DNA from: Tillus elongatus
Lineage: Eukaryota; Arthropoda; Insecta; Coleoptera; Cleridae
Length of the DNA stretch: 64,000 bases
Assembly (NCBI GenBank): GCA_964006375.1
Contig: OZ023262.1
Location: 52,650,917 to 52,714,916, forward strand
Direction: 5' to 3'
Shown: positions 10 to 62,577 of the stretch, piece by piece
How positions within the stretch are numbered: the first letter of the stretch is position 1
Layout of the letters: each line of letters opens with the position of its first letter
Notes under the pieces: model-generated
Told to the model about the DNA's origin: nothing
The model's database searches: none
What the model saw: the letters and a program-made list of their open reading frames with translations, nothing else
Position numbers and translations under genes: made by a program

Positions 10-419
10 TAGTGACTTTTCTTTGAAAAATTCACTAATGACGAGAGGGCGACTTTTGAATTTTGAAAAAATGTCTTCCAATGAGCGCAAACTAAAACTA
101 AAACTAAAAAAAACCATAACTAAAATTACTGCCAAAACACTAAAGAAAGTGTCCATTTGAAATGAATTTTCTGGAAATATTTAAGTAAAATGAAGGACAA
201 TGACGGTTGAAGCCAAAACTTAAAGGTTTATAAAACACAATTCTTGCTACATTTTTTCTACGTATCATCTTGTATTCGTTACAGGTTCTTTGCCTAAATG
301 TTGCCAATTTTGACGTTTCAAATCGCGACATTGGCGTTTTAAGAAAAAAATCCCATTTTTTGAAAGCCTACAACCCGAGTACCAAATTTGGTTGCCATAA
401 TTTTGTTAATTCCGGATAT

Positions 420-496
<77 letters not shown>

Positions 497-9374: not shown

Positions 9375-12309
9375 ATTTTTTTTTAATTTCGACAACACAC
9401 CACGAGGGCTTACTGCCTAAATACTATCGTACCGTGGGTGTCGACAAGGAGGAAAGGGGCAACTTGTTAATTCTGGACTTGAAGGTTTGGAGGTTCGGAG
9501 GAGAAGGAAAAACATGTGCCGGCAAAGAATTCCATAACTTGGAAGTCCTCGGGACAAAAGAGCGGGCATAACAAGATGTTCTATGTCTGGAGACCTGGAG
9601 AGTAAAAGGATGCATTCGCTCTATTCCCCTGGTAGATCTGTTCGGGGCAGCAGGTGGAGGAACTATGGAAGAAAGCTCCTCTGAGCACTGCCCGTGCAGA
9701 TATCTATAAAAGAGAGAGAGGTCACCAACGGCACGTCGGTGGGCAAGGGATGGCAGCCTTTGGGTGAGTGTAGGGTCACCGATGAGACGTATAGCTCTCT
9801 TCTGAATGGAGTCCAGGATAGCGAGTGTAGAAGCGGCAGCGGCACCCCAGATGTGGGAGCAGTATTCGAGGTTTGGCCTTATTTGTGAAGTATATAAGGT
9901 ATAGAGATTAGCTGGTGAAAAGTATTTGCGAGCCTGGAAGAGGAAGCCTAATTTCTTAGCAGCCGATTCTGCAATTGAAGTGACATGTTGGTGCCAATTG
10001 AGACCTCGATCCACAGAAATGCCAACAAGTGAAAAGGACTCATTACTTTGGATAACTTGGTTGTTCATTGTGATGGGTCTAGGGCTGGTGTATCTCTTAT
10101 GAGTAAGACAGCAAGACTGAGTTTTGGTGGGGTTGAATTGTACAAGATTTCTACTTCCCCAGTCTAATATTCTTTGGAGATCCACGGAGACAGAATACTC
10201 CATGAGTCTGCGATCCTCATCTAGTTGGGCTAAAGAAACAGGCTTAGGATATTGTATATTTGAGTGGAGAGTGCTGTCGTCCGCGTAACTGTGAATTGGG
10301 TTGGATGTGCTAGAGAGGAGGTCATTGATGTGGAGAAGAAACAAAGTAGGGGATAAAGCTGAACCTTGAGGAACTCCTGCATTAATTGAATATAGTTTAG
10401 AGGAATGGCCATCCACGACAACAGAAATGCTGCGGTTGGAGAGGAAATTTGCTGTCCAGGTACAGAGTTTTGGTGGTAGGCCATAGGCCGGGAGTTTATT
10501 AAGCAGCGCTGCGTGCCAGACCTGGTCGAATGCTTTGGATATATCTAGAGCGACAATCTGGGATTCACCGTGTAGTTCCATAGACTTGTACCAAGAATGG
10601 GTGACAGAGGAAAGGAGGTCGGCAGTTGATCTGCGCTGACGGAATCCATACTGTCTATCGTGAATTAGATTGTGTTTTTCGAGAAATTTTAGTAATTCGG
10701 TGTTTATATACTTTTCCATCACTTTAGAGACGACTGAAAGGAGAGAAATAGGCCTGTAGTTGCTAGGAAGCGCTTTGGATCCTTTCTTGGGGACGGGTTG
10801 TACTCGAGCAGTTTTCCAGTTACTAGGGAATATGCCTCTATTGTAAGATGTCTGAAACAGACGAGTCAGGACAGGAGCAAGTTCTGGTGCGCATTTTTTG
10901 AGAACAATTGCTGGGATATCGTCAAGGCCAGAGGCTTTCTTGGTATTAAGAGAAGAGAGCATCTTTCGTACCTTTTTAGTTTTGAAAATGATATCCGTCA
11001 TTTTGTGCGCGACATTGGGGACTGTTGGTGGTTGAACATTTGGAGGTGGGTTGAGAGTAGAATTGGCGGCAAATAACGAGGCAAAAAGTTCAGCCTTGCC
11101 CAGGGCGGTAGAAACAATTGCGTCCCCTGAGACAAGAGGTGGGAACGTGCTCTTGCAGAAATTATTCCCAATAGATTTAGCAAGAGTCCAGAAGGGTTTG
11201 CTGCCGTTAGAGCTTAAGAGGACTTTGTTTTTCATGTGGTTATTAAACGAGTTTTTTGCCTCACAAAGAATGCGGACATAGCGGTTTCTTGCGTCGTTAA
11301 ATGCTTGACGGTTTTCTTGACTGGGATTGTGTAGAAGCGTTTTGTGAGCTTTGACCTTTTCAAGTCTGGCCTTGTCACAGGATTTAGAGAACCAGGGCTT
11401 TTGAGTGGTTGAAGAGGTTTTCTGTGTACGTGGAATAAATAATTCCATGCCAGCTTGGATAATTTCGGTGACGTTTTGTGAGATATCAGAGGGGTCAGGA
11501 TGAGAGAAGCAGACAGACGCCCATGGAAATGGGGAAAAGTAATCCCGCATTTCGTCCCAGTTTGCCGAGTTGTAGTGCCAAATGATACGTGAGTGTGATG
11601 ATTGTGTGACCTCGGGTTGCATTGTGCAGGTAGCAGTGACCATGCCGTGGTCTGAACGACCAAGGGGGGCGGTGACTGATATCTTGTAGCATTCAGGTTT
11701 TGTAGTAAGAAGGAGATCCAAGGGATTTGAGCTGTGTGTTGGGATACGAGGAAAGTAAGTAGGTTGCTGAACCATATTGGCTAAAGAATTGCTGACTGTA
11801 AAGGCCTCCGCTGCTCTCCCTTGTGGATCGGTTTTGGAAGATCCTAGCCATTCCTTATTATGGACATTGAAGTCACCAAGAATGGTGACCTCGGAGGAAG
11901 GATATTCAGAAATCAGATGGTCGATTTTTTCAGAAAGGTAGTCAAAGAGCTGGACAAAGTTGTTGTCAGAAGGTGACCGGTAAATGCAACAGATGAATTT
12001 AGTCGCAGCCCTGAGAGAGAGTTTTATCCATAGAATGTCTTTTCTTCCAGCTTCTAAATTGGGAAGTCTGGTGCAGGGTAGATTGCTACGGACGTATGCG
12101 CACACGCCCCCATGCAATCTAAAGGAGGTAAGGAGCTCATACCCCGGGAAATTAAGGTGATTAGTGGCTGTTTTGGCACTGATTTGGGTTTCGGTGAGAA
12201 AGGGGAGTTGGGGCCTATTAGCCTGGAGGAAATGGTGGACGGAATTCAGGTTAGAATTTAGGCCACATATATTGGAGAAGGATATGTTAAATCTTGATGT
12301 TGGCGCCCC
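9375..12309 (-). mobile_element. LINE copy 2, apparently complete at both ends
   Basis: A 2.93-kb minus-strand insertion in a dispersed repeat. The poly-A is at 9375-9386 and the 5' end is GGGGGCGCCAACATC at 12309. The target-site duplication is short (TTATA or CTATA) but agrees exactly with undisturbed copies of the host repeat. The 5' end matches that of copy 1 to within a few bases. This suggests a real element end, or a shared source copy, not random truncation. Confidence 0.88.
9424..12309 (-). CDS. LINE endonuclease-reverse transcriptase, open frame
   Basis: About 961 codons without a stop. The endonuclease carries SNICGLN, FLTETQI (catalytic Glu), GGVCAYV, YRSPSDNN, ILGDFNVHNKEW, NPLDLLLTT and GRSDHGM. 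The reverse transcriptase carries NYRPISLLSVVSKVMEKYI, RQYGFRQRRSTADLL, ALDISKAFDQVWH, GVPQGSALSPTLF and an intact YADDSTLH box. A C-terminal domain (SRINKLPLSSLSTPTVR) ends 38 bp before the poly-A. The frame runs right up to the 5' end of the element with no in-frame ATG before the catalytic domains. Translation would need a non-AUG start, a fused upstream reading frame, or a missing 5' part. All motifs look functional. Confidence 0.9.
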   Translation of the reverse strand, partial: GAPTSRFNISFSNICGLNSNLNSVHHFLQANRPQLPFLTETQISAKTATNHLNFPGYELLTSFRLHGGVCAYVRSNLPCTRLPNLEAGRKDILWIKLSLRAATKFICCIYRSPSDNNFVQLFDYLSEKIDHLISEYPSSEVTILGDFNVHNKEWLGSSKTDPQGRAAEAFTVSNSLANMVQQPTYFPRIPTHSSNPLDLLLTTKPECYKISVTAPLGRSDHGMVTATCTMQPEVTQSSHSRIIWHYNSANWDEMRDYFSPFPWASVCFSHPDPSDISQNVTEIIQAGMELFIPRTQKTSSTTQKPWFSKSCDKARLEKVKAHKTLLHNPSQENRQAFNDARNRYVRILCEAKNSFNNHMKNKVLLSSNGSKPFWTLAKSIGNNFCKSTFPPLVSGDAIVSTALGKAELFASLFAANSTLNPPPNVQPPTVPNVAHKMTDIIFKTKKVRKMLSSLNTKKASGLDDIPAIVLKKCAPELAPVLTRLFQTSYNRGIFPSNWKTARVQPVPKKGSKALPSNYRPISLLSVVSKVMEKYINTELLKFLEKHNLIHDRQYGFRQRRSTADLLSSVTHSWYKSMELHGESQIVALDISKAFDQVWHAALLNKLPAYGLPPKLCTWTANFLSNRSISVVVDGHSSKLYSINAGVPQGSALSPTLFLLHINDLLSSTSNPIHSYADDSTLHSNIQYPKPVSLAQLDEDRRLMEYSVSVDLQRILDWGSRNLVQFNPTKTQSCCLTHKRYTSPRPITMNNQVIQSNESFSLVGISVDRGLNWHQHVTSIAESAAKKLGFLFQARKYFSPANLYTLYTSQIRPNLEYCSHIWGAAAASTLAILDSIQKRAIRLIGDPTLTQRLPSLAHRRAVGDLSLFYRYLHGQCSEELSSIVPPPAAPNRSTRGIERMHPFTLQVSRHRTSCYARSFVPRTSKLWNSLPAHVFPSPPNLQTFKSRINKLPLSSLSTPTVR

Positions 12310-18090: not shown

Positions 18091-18099
18091 CATAGAATA

Positions 18100-18824
18100 G
18101 CATGAAGCGCCATCTATGGTGTTGTAACGGTTCTAGGCTTCCACAGCTTCGGTATGGCATACTGATGAGTCAAAACAAGCACGAAATCGTCTCTTGCTAT
18201 ACATCTTGCTGCAAATCCCGGCAAGGCTCAAGTCATAGTGGCTAGCGAGTGATGTAATTCCACGCCCGTCTTCGTATTTGCCAGGGGAGATTACGCACTT
18301 TCGTTCGGTAGTTTTCTTCCCACAGCTACCTTCTTGCTGTACTGTGTGAAGGAGGAACCTGCTGTGGAACCTTAGAACCGCCACGAAACCAGAGATAGCG
18401 ATTTGGGCTATTTTCTTCACGATTATATGGCAGTCACGACTTGTTCTATCATAAGTATGGCATACTGAGGAGCCCAAACAAGAACGAAACCGGTCTACGT
18501 TTCCTGCTCTGCATCTTACCGCAAGTCCCAGCAGGACTGGTGTGAGGGTGGCTAGCGACTGACGTATTTCAAGACATGTCGTGGTATTAGTCAGAGTCGG
18601 AGCTTTTTCGTTCGCTAGTTTTCTTCTCACAGCTTCCTTCTTGCTGTACTGTGTGTACGTGGAAGCTGCTGTGGAAACATAGAGCCGCCACAAAACCACA
18701 GATGAGTCTCTGTGCTATTCTCCATTGCATTATATGACAGTGCCTGCCTCAAGGCCGACTTGTTGGAGCATATGTATAGCGCATACTGAGGAGTGCAAAC
18801 AAGGACGAAACTGGTTTAAAAATT
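18100..18824 (+). repeat. Tandem array with decayed hammerhead ribozyme motifs
   Basis: Just over two monomers (period about 303 then 321 bp, measured between CTGA(T/G)GA boxes at 18162, 18465 and 18786). Each monomer has CATACTGANGAG, an A-rich loop (AAACAAG) and then ACGAAA. Comparing the three copies suggests an ancestral stem II of GTCC/GGAC. The second copy keeps GAAACCGGTC. Stem II is mispaired in each surviving copy, so activity is doubtful. The 188-codon minus-strand frame across it is a by-product of the repeat. Confidence 0.65.
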
Positions 18825-29112: not shown

Positions 29113-29585
29113 TACTTATAGTTGTAAGACTAGATGCATTCTCGCAACAATTAGAACCGTAGACCGGTTTCGCTCTCATTAGAGCTCTTCAGTACGGCAT
29201 ACTAATTGTAGCAAAAATGCACCAAAATTAATACGGCCATAGTATAGCCAGCCTTAAAATACTAAGTGAGTGGTGGACGTGCCGCCACCTAGTTGCTGAA
29301 CCAAGTAGTATGCTGTCACGCCAGCTCCAAATAATGAAGAGCTCTAATGAGAGCGAAACCAGTCTACGTTTCTAATTGGTGCGAGAATGCATCTAGTCTT
29401 ACATACTTTGTCCCTATATTGGGGTAGAAATGGGCCAGGGCTGACAATTTTCTAAATTGTTAGTTAGCTGTATACAGTCTCTATTTTTATAACACTTTGT
29501 GTTATTTGGAGCTGGCGTGACAGCATACTATTTGGTTCCGCAACTAGGTGGCGGCACGTCCACCACCACTTAGTACTTATAGTTG
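29113..29585. mobile_element. Hammerhead inverted-dimer element with 12-bp TSD
   Basis: A 449-bp insertion (29125-29573) bounded by the exact direct repeat TACTTATAGTTG (29113-29124 and 29574-29585). The left arm (minus sense, to about 29326) carries a complete hammerhead. The right arm (plus sense) carries a hammerhead without its 5' stem-I strand. The ends are TAAGACTAGATGC and CACTTAG, the same as those of the 51-kb element. There is no protein-coding capacity. The retrotransposition machinery must be supplied in trans, plausibly by a PLE. Confidence 0.85.
29148..29208 (-). ncRNA. Type-I hammerhead ribozyme
   Basis: Minus-strand order: CAATTA, internal loop GTATG, CCGTA (stem I 5' side); CTGAAGA (core CUGANGA); GCTCT-AATG-AGAGC (perfect 5-bp stem II); GAAA; ACC/GGT (stem III, self-complementary); C17 as cleavage base (site between 29162 and 29161); TACGG, loop TTC, TAATTG (stem I 3' side). 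All conserved core bases are present. The loopless stem III suggests action as a dimer, as in newt and cave-cricket satellite hammerheads. Confidence 0.9.
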
Positions 29586-31472: not shown

Positions 31473-33430
<1,958 letters not shown>

Positions 33431-34667: not shown

Positions 34668-34780
34668 CGGAGCGAGATTCATACACTTTTTATTATTACT
34701 ATATTTAGCAATGTATACCCAGCGGCGGCGGAACGAGATTCATACACTTTTTATTATTACTATATTTAGCAATGTATACA
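34668..34780. repeat. Tandem duplication of 56 bp
   Basis: GCGGCGGA(A/G)CGAGATTCATAC ... TTAGCAATGTATAC occurs twice in direct tandem at the end of the PLE coding region. Confidence 0.85.
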
Positions 34781-35110
34781 CTTTCGGAGGCGTTTAGCTG
34801 TCCTGGCTGAATAACATTTTTTATTAATTTTAGGTTCTCCTCATTAACGTGTTGATTATTATTCCAAATATGTCGGGCGACGGAAGATCTATCTATAGTA
34901 CCGTATCTTAATTGTGATAAATGTTCTTTGAATCTAATTCTAATAGATCTTCTTGTTTGTCCGACGTATTTAAGATCACAATCTTTACAACTTATTTCAT
35001 AAATTCCTGACATTTTGGCCGTACTATCCTTGTCTTTTGGGTTACCTAGCAAGTTTTTAAAGTATTCTTTGTCGAAAACGTTAGTTGCAAATTGTTTTTT
35101 TTATAAATGC
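34705..35110 (-). pseudogene. PLE GIY-YIG endonuclease domain
   Basis: LLGNPKDKDSTAKMSGIYEI then SCKDCDLKYVGQTRRSIRIR. GIY and KYVGQT are the GIY-YIG catalytic strands. Then come RFKEHL and the domain end (SESVYIAKY). The CxxC-x pattern just before KYVG is typical of PLEs. The upstream linker (GLDSIYKKNNLQLTF) is in another frame, so there are at least two frameshifts between RT and this domain. Confidence 0.85.
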
Positions 35111-35113
35111 TAT

Positions 35114-35742
35114 CTAGACCCTTCGTGAGTCGAGGTTAAAACAGTAAGCAAACAAAATTTTTTTGGCTTTCTCTTTTCTAAAAGTCGTTAATTCCGTTAA
35201 CATTTTCTTTGTTTTCTGTTTGTTAATTAATTTCTCCACTAGGCAAGCAGTGTATCCGTTATATTCGGCCACGTTCCTAATATACTTTAATTCTTTGGCA
35301 TATCTACTTTTACTTAAAGAAACATTAATTAACCTGTTTGCTAAAAAATTCAGACTGGCCATTTTTTGTGCGTACGGATGATGTGAGTCATTCGTAATGT
35401 AGCTTAGAGTGGTGGTTTGCTTTTTATGGACATCAATTTCTAAAGTGTCTTTATTTTTGATAACTAGTATATCTGGAAAGGGTAATTTATTATTAATTTC
35501 TAATTCGTGGGTAAATGTTATAGAATCTAATGTATTGTTTAATTTGGCAATAAGATCTTCTACTCTGCAAATGTTTGTGTTAAACACTGCGAAAATATCA
35601 TCCACGTAACGAAAGCACACTCTAGGAAAATACTCACTTTCACTTTCAAGATCTGTTTCAAATCTATTCATGAAAAGGTGTGGAATAAATGGCGATGATG
35701 GGTTGCCCATTGCCGGGGCTTGGGTTTCTTAAAAAAAAACTA
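35114..35742 (-). pseudogene. PLE reverse transcriptase, C-terminal part
   Basis: TQAPAMGNPSSPFIPHLFMN (motif B), CFRYVDDIFAVF (catalytic YVDD), LPFPDILVIKNKDTLEIDVH, TTTLSYITNDSHHPYAQK, RNVAEYNGYTACLVEKLIN. The order is exactly that of Penelope-type reverse transcriptases, which are related to telomerase and use GIY-YIG endonucleases. The first half is absent. Confidence 0.88.
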
Positions 35743-50740: not shown

Positions 50741-50949
50741 AACACACTAAATAAATACTAAGTGAGTAGCGAACGTGTCGCCACCTAGTTCGGAACCAAG
50801 TACTTGTTGTCACGCCCGCTCCAAATAATACAGAGTATTAAAAATAGAGACGGTATACAACTAACTAACAATTTAAAAAATTGTTAGCCCTGGCCCATTT
50901 CTACCCCAATATAGGGACAAAGTATGTAAGACTAGATGCATTCTCGCAA

Positions 50950-51010
50950 CAATTAGAACCGTAGACCGGTTTCGCTCTCATTAGAGCTCTTCAGTACGGC
51001 ATACTAATTG
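50950..51010 (-). ncRNA. Type-I hammerhead ribozyme, left arm
   Basis: Core identical to 29148-29208: stem I CAATTA/TAATTG and CCGTA/TACGG around loop GTATG/TTC; CTGAAGA; GCTCT-AATG-AGAGC; GAAA; ACCGGT; C17. Confidence 0.9.
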
Positions 51011-51156
51011 CAGCAAAAATGCACCAAAAATAACACGGCTATCGTATAGCCAGTCTTAAAACACTAAGTGAGTAGCGTGGCGACACGTTCACCACTCACT
51101 TAGTGTTTTAAGACTGGCTATACGATAGCCGTGTTATTTTTGGTGCATTTTTGCTG

Positions 51157-51217
51157 CAATTAGTATGCCGTACTGAAGAGCTCTAATGAGAGCGAAACCG
51201 GTCTACGGTTCTAATTG
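51157..51217 (+). ncRNA. Type-I hammerhead ribozyme, right arm
   Basis: Stem I 5' side 51157-51172, CTGAAGA 51173-51179, stem II 51180-51193, GAAA 51194-51197, stem III ACCGGT 51197-51202, predicted cleavage after C51203, stem I 3' side 51204-51217. Complete core and full pairing. Confidence 0.9.
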
Positions 51218-51253
51218 TTGCGAGAATGCATCTAGTCTTACACTAAATAAATA

Positions 51254-55736: not shown

Positions 55737-55787
55737 TCTTACTATTACAATTTGGAGAACCCAATTCATCAAAATACAGTTTTCAGA

Positions 55788-55825
55788 CCTGATTTTCGTT
55801 TCGCTAACAAAGTTTGCGTCATCAG
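55788..55825 (-). ncRNA. Hammerhead-like hairpin
   Basis: Minus strand: CTGATGA (perfect), extra C, stem GCAAAC/GTTAGC with one mismatch, GAAA (perfect), ACGAAAAT, C, AGG. Stem I does not pair because the palindrome junction falls just upstream. Confidence 0.55.
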
Positions 55826-55928
55826 ACGAATTAATAAACTGTTAGCGAAACGATCGTCAGGTCTTAAAACTGTATTGTGATGAATTGGGTTCTCCAAATT
55901 GTGCTAACCAGTTTTCTCATATTTTCAT

Positions 55929-55969
55929 CCTCTGATAAAGCTAACTTTGTTAGCAAAACGATCGTTAGG
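55929..55969 (+). ncRNA. Hammerhead-like hairpin with full stem I
   Basis: Stem I CCT/AGG, extended by CATATTTT/AAAATGTG beyond an internal loop; CTGATAA (G8 to A); extra A; stem GCTAAC-TTT-GTTAGC; AAAA (G12 to A); stem III ACGATCGT; T17. The helices are complete but two catalytic Gs are mutated, so it is inactive. Confidence 0.6.
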
Positions 55970-56049
55970 TCTTTTAAAATGTGTTGTGGTGATTTGGGTT
56001 CTCCAAGCGTGCTAATTGCTCATCACAGATTCCAATCTACACTTATGCC

Positions 56050-59991: not shown

Positions 59992-60915
<924 letters not shown>

Positions 60916-61944: not shown

Positions 61945-62346
61945 ATCTGGACGCAGTAAGTGCGTTTTGGCAGCGAATTTTCATTAAATCCTTCAAATTT
62001 CAATAACTCAATTTTCTATTAACGTAAGTTTTGTTGGTTAGGAAATCTACATATAACTTTATTTTCGGAATTTTTTTTTATAAACGCGGTGAGGGCGGTT
62101 TGGTAGCAAATTTTCATTAAATGTTTCAAATTTCAATAACTCAATTTGCTATTAACCTAAGGTTCATTGTCTAGGAGACCAGTCTTCTCACAAACATTTA
62201 AAGTTTATTTTCGGAACATTTTTGTACATTTTCAAATAATTATTTTGATAAAATATGGTACATTGTTCCTACTATATAGGTTATACCGGTAACCAAATTG
62301 ATTTTTATGAAAATTCACTTCCATAACGCACTTGCTGCGTCTAGAG
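61945..62346. repeat. Two MITE-like copies, overlapping or nested
   Basis: Tips GGACGCAGTAAGTGCGTTTTGG (61948), CGCGGTGAGGGCGG (62085) and, at the right, CCATAACGCACTTGCTGCG (62315). Confidence 0.65.
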
Positions 62347-62577
62347 TCTTTACTGTTAATTTTGGCATTAAATTTTAAAACTATAGCATTTTTGAATAGA
62401 GAATGAAGAGATCTTTCAGATGGGGTGTCACAAGCCCCTACTTGTAACTTTCACTCGAATGGGGTGAATGTAGGGGTGAAGTTCTCACGTTGCAGTATGT
62501 GATTTATGATCAATATGAACAATAATTGAGATACTGATTCTTTTTCCATCTGACTGTTCCACACTGTATATTTTAGA
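62347..62577. repeat. Dispersed repeat F, inverted copy
   Basis: Reverse complement of 50475-50740 (CAAGCCCCTACTTGTAAC, TTCTCACGTTGCAG, TCCACACTGTATA). Confidence 0.7.

Follow-up and report, generated by a model that had tools for sequence, protein, structure and literature searches.

Head-to-head hammerhead retrozyme insertions in a Tillus elongatus contig, possibly made by Penelope-type two-sided priming

Within a 64,000-nucleotide stretch of a Tillus elongatus contig (hereafter the window), two insertions consist of head-to-head partial copies of one hammerhead-bearing monomer, have both outer ends in common, differ at their inner junctions and are each flanked by a target-site duplication (TSD). 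The explanation that we favor, at somewhat better than even likelihood, is that a retrozyme RNA was copied by a Penelope-type reverse transcriptase (RT) priming from the two strands of the target at fixed positions within the RNA, and that the resulting cDNAs were joined head-to-head. This mechanism rests on the two insertions and on analogy with published work on Penelope elements.

According to this explanation, the two insertions, U1 and U2, would both derive from one metazoan non-LTR retrozyme, a non-coding hammerhead RNA of 306–310 nt that may be produced as circles or tandem multimers. A Penelope-type enzyme, which carries a GIY-YIG endonuclease, would cut an AT-rich target with a stagger of ~12 nt and use both 3' overhangs as primers, one at a site that we call A and the other at a site that we call B, on opposite strands of one predicted RNA helix. 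Each cDNA would be extended over a variable distance before the two were joined, so that the outer ends would be fixed, the inner junctions would vary and a TSD would remain. On the enzyme that moves animal retrozymes, the available text of PMC7229834 offers only proposals, and a Penelope-like layout whose start sites can be placed to within one or two bases makes the question testable.

Two insertions with common outer ends

U1 is 484 bp long (50758–51241) and has ACTAAATAAATA at either side, a TSD that measures 12 bp, or 14 bp (ACACTAAATAAATA) with the ambiguous bases assigned to the target (Table 1). The original prediction for this DNA had given the same length and a 12-bp duplication, and had placed two full hammerheads on opposite strands at 50950–51010 (minus) and 51157–51217 (plus); all of this was borne out. 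It had also described mirror-image arms of about 150 bp around a loop of about 16 bp. Mirror-image arms are indeed present (50925–51073 and 51094–51242, 100% complementary), with a measured length of 149 nt each and a spacer of 20 nt. Identity between the arms spans 148 nt and fails at the inner edge only (GCT versus ACC), a mismatch for which two-sided priming would require two RNAs or one error. The monomer, earlier put at 309 bp, has a measured period of 306 nt in U1 (GC 40.8%), and the corresponding circle in U2 is 310 nt.

A second head-to-head copy, U2 (29124–29573, minus strand, 450 bp), was recovered by blastn and has its own 12-bp TSD, CAACTATAAGTA; the expectation that other copies would have the same ends and their own duplication was therefore confirmed inside the window. 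The TSD sequences of U1 (14 bp) and U2 (12 bp) are not alike. As found by blastn, the family in the 64-kb window comprises these two insertions and one fragment, U3, for which no inverted partner was seen, and a long direct array of the monomer is absent from the window. A suspected decayed ribozyme upstream of U3 was dropped, its score of 27 lying within the range of shuffled sequences (mean 21.6, maximum 38).

Table 1. Positions of the insertions, related repeats and Penelope-type sequences in the window
Feature	Position	Strand	Evidence or remarks
Inverted fragment, left edge of second decayed hammerhead-repeat family	18094–18147	-	Alignment score 56 against each of two repeats
Decayed tandem hammerhead repeats	18152–18818	+	Cores at 18162, 18465 and 18786; spacing 303 and 321
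U2 TSD, right copy in minus-strand reading	29113–29124	.	CAACTATAAGTA; overlaps unit end by one ambiguous base
U2 short arm, ending at site B	29124–29334	-	Intact hammerhead 29148–29208, C17 at 29162; Rfam HH9 24.8 bits, E 0.0011
U2 long arm, ending at site A	29335–29573	+	Inner end cut inside hammerhead core; remnant Rfam HH9 19.4 bits, E 0.063
U2 TSD, left copy in minus-strand reading	29574–29585	.	Repeat test
GIY-YIG endonuclease, same Penelope element as RT fragment	34705–35100	-	Another frame; Pfam GIY-YIG 29.5 bits, E 9e-7, cut-off 22.6
Penelope-type RT fragment (presumed)	35114–35728	-	Pfam RVT_1 22.3 bits, E 1.2e-4, below cut-off 29.6, for 35114–35710
U1 left TSD	50746–50757 (50744–50757 if 14 bp)	.	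ACTAAATAAATA; sequence reading and repeat test
U1 long arm	50758–51077	-	One complete circuit of the 306-nt monomer and a further 14 nt; minus strand is sense; outer end is site A (CACTTAG|)
Hammerhead type I in U1 long arm	50950–51010	-	C17 at 50964; descriptor; Rfam HH9 30.4 bits, E 2.1e-5, below gathering
U1 short arm	51077–51241	+	Monomer 294–306, then 1–152; outer end is site B (GTCTTAC|)
Hammerhead type I in U1 short arm	51157–51217	+	C17 at 51203; descriptor; Rfam HH9 30.4 bits, E 2.1e-5, below gathering
U1 right TSD	51242–51253	.	Sequence reading and repeat test
pLTR-like repeats of the window Penelope family, head-to-head	55752–56013	minus 55752–55829; plus 55841–55908, 55925–56013	Match Penelope 3' flank
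U3, old fragment of monomer 152–299	60396–60545	+	109/150 columns identical; blastn match begins at site B; without ribozyme half
Repeat copy without insertion, both U1 flanks matched in order	62152–62495	-	Approximate empty site, not base-precise

When the insertions are placed on a doubled monomer, U1 runs from 320 to 1 (minus) and from 294 to 458 (plus). One arm of U2 goes from 320 down to about 85 and the other from about 250 up to 458, with inner limits of 82 and 243 according to blastn. The outer ends are common to both, with A after nt 14 (equivalent to 320, CACTTAG) and B after nt 152 (equivalent to 458, GTCTTAC), and both have the same asymmetric layout, with the long arm running to A and the short arm to B. 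The inner ends, at 1/294 in U1 and about 85/250 in U2, are not common. Because each arm reads through the start site of the other, the template was circular or a tandem multimer, and from the insertion ends we infer that reverse transcription started at A and B. Given the ambiguous bases beside the duplications, the units could stop one or two bases earlier at B (TSD of 14 bp for U1 and 12 bp for U2).

Comparison of the arms suggests that the two dimers have separate histories. In the A-side segment, 2 mismatches plus 1 gap column separate the U2 arms over a length of 73, and each has 8 mismatches against U1; this nearness of the U2 arms to each other, together with the identity of the U1 arms, makes each dimer look separately made, as expected if every head-to-head insertion arose from its own source RNA. 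The signal is missing in the ribozyme segment, where U1 and the U2 short arm are identical and the U2 long-arm remnant differs by 3/68. When the short arms of U1 and U2 are compared, none of the 85 positions running from the ribozyme as far as B differs, and 9 of the 80 upstream do (Fisher p 0.0012), a pattern that hints at constraint on the ribozyme.

Duplications of this length are rare by chance: non-simple exact repeats of at least 12 bp at such spacing were found at 85 of 100,000 random places. With simple matches excluded, the control gave 101 of 100,000 for a length of at least 10 bp and 68 for at least 14 bp, a plateau that is probably caused by tandem repeats; with simple matches included, it gave 406 of 40,000 at 12 bp or more, a count inflated by microsatellites. 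The repeat copy at 62152–62495 (minus strand), which has diverged, also bears on the U1 target. Aligned end to end with the joined U1 flanks, it lacks the insertion and has gaps around the join (score 278), and the U1 left flank alone scores 118 against it, compared with a maximum of 40 in 100 shuffles. Neither join was spanned by a single match when the joined flanks of U1 and of U2 were searched in the window by blastn, and this search within the 64-kb window found no empty site for U2.

Hammerhead motifs and predicted RNA folds

The original prediction of type I hammerhead motifs holds up on two counts. A strict descriptor found three sites in the window, all of the U1/U2 family, against a mean of 0.015 in 200 dinucleotide shuffles of the window, 3 of which had one. 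In addition, Rfam applied to a 1-kb stretch matched both U1 ribozymes to Hammerhead_HH9 (30.4 bits, E 2.1e-5), below the gathering score of 52; at gathering score Rfam gave no match in the window. The top Rfam matches in U1 were to miRNA hairpin models, again below gathering (MIR8562, 111.1 bits, gathering 211); we attribute these to the long inverted repeat and reject them as miRNAs. Searches for the ribozyme core, exact in viral contigs and as a degenerate pattern in bacterial and archaeal genomes, returned 0 matches each in collections that are hardly informative here.

Stem I of the hammerhead contains an internal loop and stem II carries a tetraloop; stem III is one base pair capped by a palindromic tetraloop (A-CCGG-U, the whole ACCGGT being palindromic). 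The earlier suggestion that such a stem III favors dimeric ribozymes is backed, by analogy, by the axolotl ribozymes of PMC7229834, in which a single base pair with a palindromic tetraloop goes with better cleavage as dimers. In the minimum-free-energy (MFE) fold of the 61-mer, the core is partly paired with stem III and the catalytic core does not form (-20.6 kcal/mol, versus -11.6 kcal/mol for the native helices), so that folding proves neither activity nor inactivity; the predicted misfolding of a lone 61-mer is in line with a need for dimers.

The monomer as a circle is predicted to be highly self-paired (-105.2 kcal/mol, z -6.35 against 200 shuffles), and one predicted helix has site A on one strand and site B on the other (13–17 with 153–157, 20–26 with 145–151). 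The two sites are 3 steps apart in the predicted fold, a closeness shared by 1.3% of pairs of positions separated by at least 100 nt and reached in 4 of 300 shuffles, that is, significance at the 1% level in a test conceived after the fold had been seen. Pairing probabilities for this helix are unchanged in the linear RNA cut at C17. In U2 all 12 of the 12 predicted pairs are kept, with one-sided changes from G16-U154 to A-U and from A24-U147 to G-U, in a comparison of two sequences.

A 484-nt transcript of the inverted locus, from either strand, would contain the antisense ribozyme first and the sense ribozyme second. In the best folds of these transcripts (-322.7 and -341.7 kcal/mol), the whole sense ribozyme is sequestered in a long hairpin, and a fold constrained to contain the ribozyme helices is 92.5 kcal/mol less stable. 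With the ribozyme buried like this in its transcript, the inverted locus is probably an end product, and the original view of the inverted dimer as the working form is not supported. We infer from these models that the inverted locus would be a poor source of ribozyme and of RNA circles, and that active source loci would be direct tandems elsewhere.

Relation to known systems

The profile of the U1/U2 monomer (306–310 nt, 41% GC, strongly self-folding) is that of a metazoan non-LTR retrozyme. The retrozymes of Cervera and de la Pena (2020, PMC7229834) are, like U1 and U2, non-coding, about 300 bp long and low in GC, with a type I hammerhead, a TSD of >4 bp and self-paired RNA. U1 and U2 have a type I hammerhead with conserved core and helices, albeit with an Rfam match below gathering; a non-coding, low-GC monomer within the usual ~170–400 nt; a tandem or circular template, the U1 long arm exceeding one turn and the arms reading through A or B; TSDs of 14 and 12 bp; and the highly self-paired RNA described above. 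They depart from those retrozymes in layout: the published ones are direct tandem repeats, the word 'inverted' being absent from the main text of PMC7229834, whereas U1 and U2 are head-to-head partial dimers with two fixed ends.

That layout instead recalls endonuclease-containing Penelope-like elements, for which PMC3846280 and PMC11167929 describe head-to-head inverted repeats, TSDs, fixed internal RT starts, a hammerhead in the repeat and AT-rich targets. Head-to-head ends with a TSD and fixed internal start sites, the starts being read off the ends, are found in 2/2 of our inverted copies. In contrast to Penelope elements as described there, U1 and U2 have no coding sequence (no open reading frame (ORF) of at least 150 aa in the 484- and 450-bp units), a fuller hammerhead than the minimal Penelope form and start sites 138 nt rather than 30–40 nt apart. 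Because units of 484 and 450 bp are too small for an RT and a GIY-YIG domain, we do not class them as Penelope elements.

Other hammerhead-bearing repeats resemble the insertions in part. The newt and axolotl satellite hammerheads (PMC7229834) have the same one-base-pair stem III and a palindromic tetraloop suited to dimeric cleavage, and differ in host, sequence and in the inverted genomic layout of U1 and U2. The pDo500 family of Dolichopoda cave crickets is likewise an insect repeat family with a hammerhead, but it is satellite DNA, and 'inverted' has 0 occurrences in the available text of PMC2837043. The Schistosoma W-elements (PMC8490949) come near, being hammerhead-linked satellite repeats with suspected TSDs and, in some, inner inverted repeats; those inverted repeats flank predicted miRNA or snoRNA subunits, and the available text describes no head-to-head dimer with fixed ends. 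Among the matches listed for hammerheads, retrozymes, Penelope and twin priming, the titles and abstract openings held no description of head-to-head retrozyme insertions.

Explanations for the head-to-head layout

We read the head-to-head layout as an insertion footprint because Penelope elements are already described as prone to inverted arrangements with TSDs: rotifer copies have head-to-head inverted pLTRs, several with 8–10-bp TSDs and one described without (PMC3846280). With purified Anolis Penelope protein, cleavage and extension take place on both target strands, AT-rich DNA is preferred and synthesis begins at two adjacent sites inside the protein's own RNA (PMC11167929), and Penelope or LINE enzymes have been proposed as retrozyme mobilisers (PMC7229834). 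Supporting company is found in the window, which holds a GIY-YIG Penelope element as well as the head-to-head edge of the decayed hammerhead array at 18.1–18.8 kb and head-to-head pLTR-like repeats. Several points speak against the Penelope reading. The A–B spacing is 138 (or 168) nt, versus 30–40 nt in the published Penelope case; only two head-to-head insertions are present in the window, the third family locus, U3, being a lone fragment; no likeness between the retrozyme ends and Penelope ends is established at the sequence level; and self-priming is the favored explanation for inverted Penelope copies in PMC3846280, which counts against two-sided priming. A further proposal, which we regard as possible though tentative and would not ourselves expect to hold, is that the two strands of one RNA helix serve as the two start sites and that a dimeric Penelope-type enzyme extends both break ends in one complex. 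If this proposal is true, head-to-head insertion between fixed A and B ends would be what the reaction normally yields, and could be diagnostic of the enzyme that moves animal retrozymes. Recognition through the A/B helix, if real, would also account for the ability of a non-coding RNA to parasitise a Penelope enzyme.

The inverted dimer could alternatively be a heritable mobile unit, one ancestral inverted copy having been propagated, as the original prediction implied. The asymmetric layout common to U1 and U2 is in its favor; the differing inner junctions, the closer resemblance of the A-side U2 arms to each other than to U1 and the 148-nt identity of the U1 arms argue the other way. The signal of separate making is absent in the ribozyme segment, and gene conversion between arms could mimic it elsewhere; we judge this origin unlikely. 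Twin priming of the LINE type, with the genome's own LINE as helper in place of Penelope, yields inverted insertions with TSDs, and LINE-type RT ORFs are present in the window. In L1 twin priming, however, one end is anchored at the RNA 3' tail and the other is variable, whereas here both outer ends agree in 2/2 copies and no tail is seen in U1 or U2; we judge a LINE helper unlikely as well.

Under self-priming, a single cDNA (or antisense RNA) would fold back on itself and be copied, so that the second arm would arise by snap-back from the first. The 148-nt identity of the U1 arms speaks for this, and palindromes often occur at Penelope inverted junctions (PMC3846280). Yet the U1 arms disagree precisely at the inner edge, where a snap-back copy should match, and the second arm meets the target at the same site B in 2/2 copies, an agreement that fold-back does not call for; we consider self-priming about as unlikely as a heritable dimer. 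An origin at the DNA level, as a fold-back DNA transposon or rearranged satellite DNA, is suggested by the long inverted arms and by the existence of hammerhead satellites (PMC2837043), but the ends of the units lack inverted-repeat symmetry (inspection by eye shows only CTTA in common), the TSDs are 12–14 bp long and the arms correspond to permuted stretches of a tandem or circular monomer, so that we think it very unlikely. Least probable of all is a sequencing or assembly artefact: the perfect 149-bp palindrome arm of U1 might raise the suspicion of a palindromic chimera, and against it stand the TSD at both sides and an independent U2 with diverged arms.

Other repeats in the window

The second hammerhead-repeat family, near 18 kb, is a decayed tandem array with an inverted fragment at its left edge, whose alignment scores of 56 exceed the best of 500 shuffles (26 and 29). 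At the right edge, blastn similarity ends ~2 nt beyond the point at which the third core would be expected to cleave, and Rfam reports Hammerhead_1 at that core only (13.4 bits, E 9.4). We take the RT fragment at 35114–35728 to belong to the Penelope clade on the basis of its motifs and of the adjoining GIY-YIG domain. The head-to-head alignment of the pLTR-like repeats at 55752–56013 scores 87, against a maximum of 30 in 500 shuffles, and these repeats presumably contain minimal-hammerhead-like motifs. No TSDs were obvious by eye for the array near 18 kb or for the 55.75–56.01-kb repeats.

A LINE ORF at 9424–12117 (minus strand) is a single 897-aa frame with endonuclease and RT domains, perhaps a young copy. 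Homologues of one LINE ORF of the window point to arthropods: those named among the best 120 of 890 matches come from seed beetles, an isopod, a crab, moths and a butterfly. The window also contains a near-identical 190/272-bp tandem duplication around (TA)n runs at 942–1633 and, at 31622–32648, a (TG)n run of 1027 bases with 100% matches.
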